The notes under the pieces are model-generated. The model made no database searches. It was not told the DNA's origin and worked only from the letters and a program-made list of their open reading frames with translations. Shown here one piece after another: positions 17,176 to 22,700 of a stretch of DNA of 34,878 nucleotides (position 1 is its first letter; the number at the start of each line of letters is the position of its first letter). The DNA comes from Acidimicrobiaceae bacterium (GTDB taxonomy: Bacteria > Actinomycetota > Acidimicrobiia > Acidimicrobiales > Bog-793). The position numbers and the translations under genes are program-made. The stretch lies in assembly GCA_027306925.1 (NCBI GenBank), contig DAHUXW010000088.1:1-34878 (forward strand), written 5' to 3'.

Positions 17176-17204
17176 TTGCCCGCTCGGCAACACGGGCGTA
17201 ACAT
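17176..17204 (+). promoter_or_regulatory. Candidate sigma70-type promoter of whiB gene
   Basis: TTGCCC (17176-17181) - 17 bp - TAACAT (17199-17204), leaving a roughly 137-nt leader to GTG 17348. Confidence 0.45.
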
Positions 17205-17276
17205 GTCGCCCGCCAGTGGGTGCCTCCGCGAGCTGCTCGGGGGGTGTGTCGCAGGGCAGAGGGAGCGGGGGGCCGC

Positions 17277-17306
17277 CCAGCCTTGTGAACGCGTGCACAA
17301 GGCTGG
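17277..17306. promoter_or_regulatory. Perfect 11-bp inverted repeat CCAGCCTTGTG-aacgcgtg-CACAAGGCTGG upstream of whiB; CRP-like operator or leader hairpin
   Basis: Direct inspection; contains a GTG-N8-CAC core. Confidence 0.6.
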
Positions 17307-17347
17307 CGACGTGCGCCATGGCGGCGCCGACGCATCGAGGAGGCAAC

Positions 17348-17638
17348 GTGGCCCTCAGCTGGAACAGGTCGATCGACTGGGACGGGGACGCCTGGCGCGA
17401 GCGAGCGGCGTGCTGCGACACCGATCCCGACCTCTTCTTCCCTGTCGGAACCACCGGTCAGGCGGTCGACCAGATCGAGGCCGCGAAAGCCGTCTGCCGG
17501 GCCTGCGAGGTGCAGTCCGGCTGCCTCGAGTTCGCCCTCGCGACGAACCAGGAGTCGGGCGTGTGGGGCTGCACCTCCGAGGAGGAGCGCCGCAAGCTCC
17601 GCAAGGCCTGGCTCGCCCGGCAGCGCCGCGCGTCCTGA
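17348..17638 (+). CDS. whiB1: WhiB1/WblE-type Fe-S transcription factor
   Basis: RERAACCDTDPDLFFPVGTTGQAVDQIEAAKAVCRACEVQSGCLEFALATNQESGVWGCTSEEERRKLRK: CxxC/CxxxxxC arrangement plus GVWG turn; RBS GAGGAGGCAAC then GTG. Confidence 0.9.
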   Translation: MALSWNRSIDWDGDAWRERAACCDTDPDLFFPVGTTGQAVDQIEAAKAVCRACEVQSGCLEFALATNQESGVWGCTSEEERRKLRKAWLARQRRAS

Positions 17639-17707: not shown

Positions 17708-19246
17708 TCACAGGTCCTGCACCGCGCCGGTCCGGCCGAGCGGCACGGTGAGCCGGACGACCGCCCCACCACCGGACTCGATCTCGATCGACCCGCCGAG
17801 CTGGCTCCGCACGAGGTCGCGCACGATCGCGAGGCCGAGGCTCCGCGTGCGGTCGATGTCGAACCCGTCGGGGAAGCCCTGTCCGTTGTCGCGGATCTCG
17901 ACCTCGAGGGTCCGCGAGTCGTTGGCGAGGGAGAGCTCGACCCGCGGCTCGTGGACCTCCCCGACGAAGGCGTGCTCGACCGCGTTCTGCAACAGCTCGG
18001 CGATCACGACTGCGAGCGGCGTCGCGACGTCGGCGACGAGGTCCCCGGCGTCGCCGGACACCTCGACCTGGACGTGGGCCGCGGTCATGTTCGCGTCCTT
18101 CGCGAGCTGGACGAGCGCGGGCACGATCTCGTTGAACGGCACCTGCTCGCCCGGCTCGCGGGCGAGGATCTCGTGGACGAGCGCGATCGCCCGGATGCGG
18201 CGCTCGGCCTCGAGGAGCGCGACGCGCGCGGTGCGGTCCTCGAGACGCCGGGACTGCAGGCGCAGCAACGACGAGATCGTCTGGAGGTTGTTCTTCACAC
18301 GGTGGTGCACCTCGCGGATCGTCGCGTCCTTCGACAGGAGCAGCCGGTCGCGGCGCCGCAGGTCCGTGACGTCGCGCACGAGCACGGCCGCGCCGGTCAC
18401 CTCGCCGTCCTGGATGAGCGGGATGCAGCGCACGAGCACCATGACGTCCGGGCGGCGCTCGATCTCCTCGATGACCGGGACGCGCCGCTCGAACGCCTCC
18501 GAGACCGCGTCCGAGTCGACGCCGAGCGACGCGAGCGTCGAGCCGACGATCGCGGACACGAGCCCCATGCGGTGGAGCGCGTTCACGGCGTTGGGCGACG
18601 CGAAGGTCACGCGCTGCTCCGCGTCGAGCACGACGACGCCGTCGCCGACGCGCGGCGCCTCCTCCGCAGCGTCCTCGTCCGTCACGAACGGGTAGAGGCC
18701 GCTCGCGACCATCGTCGCGAGGCGGTCGAACAGCCGCAGGTACACGCGCTCGAGCCCACCGGTCCGGCGCCCGACCGACGGCGACCACACGCGGCTGAGC
18801 ACCGCGACGACGTCCCCCCGCCAACGCACCGGGATGCACTGGTAGAGCACGGGGCCCTCCTCGGCTCCCGCGGGCCGCTCCCCCGTCATGATCGTGCCGC
18901 GCCGCCACGACTCGAGCACGAGCGGCAGCTCGGACGCCGCGACCACCTGGCCGAGCAGGTCGAGCTCGAACAGCGTCTGGCTCGTCGTCGGCCGCATCTG
19001 CCCGAGGACCACGAAGTGGAGCCCGGTGAGCGAGCCGCCCCGCTCCTGCGGCGGCCCGCCGTCCCACGAGTCCACCCCGGGCTCGGCGACCGCGAGCGAG
19101 AACTGGTCGATCGGCACGTAGAGCAGCAGGTCCGAGAAGGACAGGTCCGCGAGCATCCCCCAGACCGCCATGAAGCGCTCGAGGTGGTTGCGGGCCCCGA
19201 GGTCGAGACCCGTGTACTCGCGGGCGAGGTCGACGGGCGAGGTCAC
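17708..19246 (-). CDS. pdtaS: HisKA_2-type sensor histidine kinase, PdtaS-like
   Basis: GAF-like N-terminus, PAS (GDGVVVLDAEQRVTFASPNAVNALHRMG), REVHHRVKNNLQTISSLLRLQSRRL, ELLQNAVEHAF, DNGQGFPDGF.. and SLGLAIVRDLVRSQLGGSIEIES. GTG start overlaps the PHP gene stop by 4 nt. Confidence 0.88.
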   Translation of the reverse strand: MTSPVDLAREYTGLDLGARNHLERFMAVWGMLADLSFSDLLLYVPIDQFSLAVAEPGVDSWDGGPPQERGGSLTGLHFVVLGQMRPTTSQTLFELDLLGQVVAASELPLVLESWRRGTIMTGERPAGAEEGPVLYQCIPVRWRGDVVAVLSRVWSPSVGRRTGGLERVYLRLFDRLATMVASGLYPFVTDEDAAEEAPRVGDGVVVLDAEQRVTFASPNAVNALHRMGLVSAIVGSTLASLGVDSDAVSEAFERRVPVIEEIERRPDVMVLVRCIPLIQDGEVTGAAVLVRDVTDLRRRDRLLLSKDATIREVHHRVKNNLQTISSLLRLQSRRLEDRTARVALLEAERRIRAIALVHEILAREPGEQVPFNEIVPALVQLAKDANMTAAHVQVEVSGDAGDLVADVATPLAVVIAELLQNAVEHAFVGEVHEPRVELSLANDSRTLEVEIRDNGQGFPDGFDIDRTRSLGLAIVRDLVRSQLGGSIEIESGGGAVVRLTVPLGRTGAVQDL

Positions 19247-22581: not shown

Positions 22582-22700
22582 CCGATCGCTCCTGTTCGAC
22601 GTCCTCGCGACATCGTAGGGCGACCGCGACGCGCCGGGCGCGTGCGCCGTGGCCGGTGTGCGCCGCGCGGCCGGAGCCGCGCGGCGCGCACCGGATCTGC

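Follow-up and report, generated by a model that had tools for sequence, protein, structure and literature searches.

Background

In Streptomyces avermitilis, Rex protects positions +108 to +135 of wblE, deletion of rex raises wblE expression, and binding was also detected by ChIP (PMC5355995). The authors of that study proposed that Rex acts as a roadblock in the wblE leader, and they showed release of Rex by NADH at cydA1 (PMC5355995). The published Rex operator (ROP) of S. avermitilis, S. coelicolor, and Staphylococcus aureus is TTGTGAANNNNTTCACAA (PMC5355995). The Mycobacterium tuberculosis whiB1 gene is under CRP control, as the original prediction stated (PMC4117774, PMC3430963). The product, WhiB1/WblE, is an essential, nitric oxide-sensitive iron-sulphur regulator, and few species are known for which the control of its abundance has been described. 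Literature searches for comparative-genomic work on Rex in Actinobacteria or Acidimicrobiia returned no paper.

Here we analyze a window of 34,878 bp (the whole stretch of DNA presented above, contig C74) from an Acidimicrobiaceae genome of 2.87 Mb in 170 contigs that is 97.6% complete. The core of a palindrome in the leader of its whiB1 gene is very probably a Rex operator, at which a roadblock would couple the NADH/NAD+ ratio to WhiB1.

The whiB1 leader and its inverted repeat

The gene was originally described as whiB1-like, and both the PF02467 match and the orthologue searches agree with this (Table 1). The adjacent pdtaS-like gene is the same neighbor that whiB1 has in M. tuberculosis (Rv3219/Rv3220c). 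The exact 11-bp inverted repeat is present as predicted (CCAGCCTTGTG-AACGCGTG-CACAAGGCTGG, without a mismatch), and the spacings predicted for it, about 42 bp to the whiB start and about 73 bp from a TTGCCC-N17-TAACAT promoter, come to 41 and 72 bp. Promoters were predicted by pattern, as was the transcription start at about 17211, which places the 18-bp core of the repeat at about +81. The G-rich box is kept in several genera of the family, and the G-run also occurs in Rex-less genomes (L029, L041, and L043).

Table 1. Features of the whiB1 leader and adjacent genes, with positions in the window
Feature	Position	Strand	Details
-35 element TTGCCC	17176..17181	+	conserved form CCTTGCC
-10 element TAACAT	17199..17204	+	conserved form GGCGTAACAT
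G-rich box GGGGGGCCGCCC	17267..17278	+	conserved, shortly before the operator
Full exact inverted repeat	17277..17306	.	11-bp arms, 8-bp spacer
Predicted Rex operator (ROP) TTGTGAACGCGTGCACAA	17283..17300	.	13/14 to TTGTGAANNNNTTCACAA, consensus from PMC5355995
Ribosome-binding site GAGGAGG	17337..17343	+	
whiB1/wblE orthologue	17348..17638	+	96 aa, GTG start; Pfam PF02467, 81.2 bits; orthologue searches
pdtaS-like histidine kinase neighbor	17708..19204	-	GAF_PdtaS, HisKA_2

The bare repeat is weakly significant within the window. Counting all perfect repeats whose arms reach 11 bp or more, with loops of 3 to 20, gives five, compared with 2.4 expected at the composition of the window (74.5% G+C), so the length of the repeat alone is no strong evidence; if only loops of 8 are counted, there is one such repeat compared with 0.08 expected. 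The four further repeats (at 22661, 30965, 30376, and 3754) bring the count to a number near chance. The 28-bp palindrome with 10-bp arms has no second copy elsewhere in the genome, and we rejected a dispersed repeat element on this basis.

A conserved, probable Rex operator in the core of the repeat

The match of the inner 18-mer to the Rex operator is highly significant, given that the window contains one match at 11/14 or better (it scores 13/14) and 0.03 are expected. The right half reads GCACAA instead of TCACAA, a G for T. At the family level the conserved core is TTGTGAAC-NNN-TGCACAA, found in almost all genera at a near-constant distance to the start. The order-wide consensus, from 97 sites, is (T/A)TGTGAA-N4-TTCACAA, which matches the published Rex operator. 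In these sites the GT and AC (positions 3-4 and 15-16) are invariant, position 7 is A in 81, as in Rex operators, and the middle four positions have no strong preference. The operator lies downstream of the predicted promoter in all 92 genomes in which a promoter was recognizable (median +50). The proposal of a conserved operator before the whiB1 orthologue, past the promoter and in a position that favors repression, is thereby supported. Alignment of related whiB1 upstream regions, the check suggested originally, upheld the conservation of the 18-bp core but not that of the outer arms (CCAGCC/GGCTGG, 6 bp on each side), which are genus-specific and restricted to this species and its sister.

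The same alignments bear on whether the full 11-bp arms instead form an RNA leader hairpin, as an attenuator, translation-control, or stability element. The transcript could form a strong hairpin, and in the sister species, whose WhiB is 96% identical, the full repeat is intact despite diverged flanks. However, the outer pairs are unconserved beyond the genus, and across the 97 sites pairing is no higher than with shuffled partners and changes inside the 18-mer occur without compensation. The fold of the leader is not unusual (z = -0.89 compared with shuffles), no U-tract terminator was found after the stem, and the leader has no Rfam family match. The leader hairpin or attenuation that had been proposed as an option finds no backing in covariation, a terminator, or fold energy, and we consider it very improbable. 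The full stem in the two sister species could still be a local refinement.

Co-occurrence of the site with Rex

The CRP and Rex motifs share the core TGTGA-N6-TCACA, which is matched at 9/10 here (TGTGA, GCACA), so sequence alone is insufficient to choose between the two proteins. The genome encodes Rex (G000:C118), a PF06971 match with DNA-binding and Rossmann domains. It is an NCBIfam Rex equivalog at 245.3 bits (cut-off 226), and its PDB matches are all Rex. The hemA gene adjoins rex, in the order rex-hemA, which resembles the rex-hem operon of S. avermitilis (PMC5355995).

Among Acidimicrobiales, a site scoring at least 11/14 is present in the whiB1 leader of 97 of the 114 Rex-encoding genomes and of 1 of the 22 that lack Rex (Fisher p = 2e-13), in a sample that is related rather than independent and made up mostly of MAGs, where absence of a gene may be an assembly gap. 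With one vote per family, which reduces the effect of kinship without removing all of it, the site is present in 28 of 32 with Rex and 1 of 11 without (p = 5e-6). The reversed motif, used as a control, occurs in 5 of the 114 and 1 of the 22. The 17 Rex genomes without a good site are from families f40, f23, and f53, and some of their WhiB matches have lower identity and may be paralogues. The lone genome with a near-perfect site and no Rex detected (G035) is an 84% complete MAG. Outside the order the co-occurrence is looser (34 of 58 loci with Rex, WhiB paralogues among these, compared with 2 of 14 without).

The pattern also holds within families. In f1, f9, and f50, members with Rex have the site and members without Rex do not, with one Rex-encoding member of f1 at 10/14. 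In the family of the window, the site is found in all 26 genomes with Rex and whiB1 (one at 10/14) and is missing or decayed in all four Rex-less genomes with whiB1; G003-G005 and G008 have neither Rex nor the site. Site presence follows Rex presence across genomes, and the loss of the operator together with Rex is established on the same footing as its sequence, its position, its conservation, and the presence of Rex in the genome.

Two degenerate forms were seen in Rex-less genomes. In G008 (L029) the site has apparently decayed in place, to CTTGTGCAGGCGCGCGCTCGCGC. A degenerate operator, TTGTGCACGCGTTAACAG, precedes whiB1 in two genomes of genus g190 (L377 and L380), and may be a relic or have been taken over by another regulator.

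Co-occurrence by itself cannot name the protein, and the same pattern would arise if another dimeric repressor had a similar half-site and disappeared along with Rex. In seven genomes of a Streptomyces-like genus from the phylum sample, however, TCGTGAAAGCGTTCACAT lies 57-63 bp upstream of the WblE match, and it is letter-identical to the ROP footprinted at S. avermitilis wblE. These sites are a positive control of the method, and since gene, location, and sequence all coincide with those of a site that Rex is known to protect, a second protein is unnecessary; we give it a negligible probability.

CRP and a second upstream palindrome

The original prediction suggested that the repeat may belong to the CRP/FNR family, as a cAMP-CRP operator acting as a repressor site on the model of M. 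tuberculosis whiB1. The overlap of the CRP core with the Rex core and the mycobacterial precedent favor this reading, and CRP proteins with an HTH occur in distant relatives within the family. In this genome, however, no CRP-type HTH protein was found at 97.6% completeness, at which such a gene could still lie in a gap. A PF13545 search of the genome gave threshold matches only; those that could be read belong to the GntR or IclR type. Three genomes of the family (G006, G007, and G030) have Rex and keep the site with no cNMP-binding domain match. The prevailing A at position 7 is Rex-like, and the M. tuberculosis CRP site is upstream, at -57.5, whereas the site here is in the leader. CRP as the regulator of this site was thus not upheld, as the site tracks Rex, no CRP/FNR factor was found, and the position differs; we regard it as highly unlikely. 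A single cNMP-binding domain was detected in the genome, in a stand-alone 156-aa protein without an HTH (L138, G000:C71).

CRP may act elsewhere in the family. Besides the Rex site, 14 family genomes have a second palindrome, TGTG(C/A)TCGTG(C/A)TCACA or a close variant, shortly before the -35 element and about 47 bp ahead of the predicted start. Relative to the start of whiB1 it lies at about -175 to -216, and it reads TGTGCTCGTGCTCACA or TGTGATCGTGATCACA (L025-L028, L030-L036, and L038-L040). Position 7 of this palindrome is T, as it is in CRP sites (E. coli consensus). A strong cNMP-binding protein (E<1e-15) is encoded in 13 of the 14 genomes with the second site and 3 of 16 without it (p = 6e-5), and the one such protein from a second-site genome that was examined by Pfam has a Crp HTH. 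These patterns suggest joint control of whiB1 by CRP and Rex in the two-site subclade.

Other predicted Rex sites in the genome and family

We scanned the genome by pattern with up to three mismatches and found seven palindromic Rex-type sites, two with one mismatch and none with two. The second one-mismatch site (C25:35880) is flanked by a purU-like gene and a membrane-protein gene whose ends converge on it; it is probably not regulatory, and we rejected it as a target of Rex. The whiB1 site is the sole strong Rex operator in promoter position in this genome, which suggests a narrow Rex regulon, although weaker sites can be functional. Because whiB1 has the only strong promoter-region operator, Rex may in this genome mainly set the level of WhiB1.

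No Rex-operator-like site was found before rex in this genome. Elsewhere in the family (L078, L080, L087, and L088), TTGTGACCGAATGCACGA and variants of it, which resemble the Rex operator, lie some 60 bp upstream of the match to the rex HTH, suggesting rex autoregulation in part of the family.

Proposed mechanism and comparison with known systems

From the S. avermitilis system we infer Rex binding, release by NADH, and roadblock repression at this locus. At low NADH/NAD+, a Rex dimer would sit on the operator about 80 bp past the predicted start. An operator downstream of the start would leave the dimer unable to block binding of RNA polymerase but able to block its passage; bound Rex would halt polymerase in the leader and lower WhiB1. 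A rise in NADH, from shortage of oxygen or another electron acceptor, would take Rex off the operator and allow whiB1 to be transcribed. The supply of an iron-sulphur regulator would thereby be coupled to the NADH pool.

The link between Rex and whiB1 was previously known in one Streptomyces species, and comparison of leaders across genomes indicates that it is old and widespread in Actinobacteria. With a Rex operator across the order and in other classes, coupling of NADH to WhiB1 would be a basic, old circuit, and the cAMP control studied in M. tuberculosis may have taken its place in a lineage that lacks Rex. The present analysis adds how deeply the site is conserved, that it is lost when Rex is lost, and that one subclade has a further site of the CRP type. 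A possible history, which we put forward tentatively and at somewhat less than even probability, is that leader-roadblock control of whiB1 by Rex is the actinobacterial ancestral state, that it disappeared in lineages that lost Rex, that CRP replaced it in mycobacteria, and that both act in one Acidimicrobiaceae subclade.

Among the closest described systems is S. avermitilis wblE, which shares with this locus the orthologous gene, the motif class, a leader position past the promoter, and a rex gene found with hemA (PMC5355995). It is from another actinobacterial class, its ROP is at +108 to +135 rather than about +81, and it has a T in the right half where the site here has a G. At least 11 targets are described for Rex in S. 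avermitilis (PMC5355995), whereas no second good promoter-placed site was found here. The operators of S. avermitilis rex, cydA, nuoA, and atpI have the consensus in common with this site, and the ROP of the rex promoter, TTGTGCACGCGTTCACAA, is its exact reverse complement; these are other target genes, and most of the operators, cydA excepted, lie over the promoter (PMC5355995). M. tuberculosis whiB1 (Rv3219, with the CRP homologue Rv3676) shares the orthologous gene and the GTG-N8-CAC operator core (PMC4117774, PMC3430963). Its CRP site at -57.5 is an activating one, unlike the leader site in this genome, in which no CRP was found, and by its upstream position it recalls the second site of the two-site subclade.
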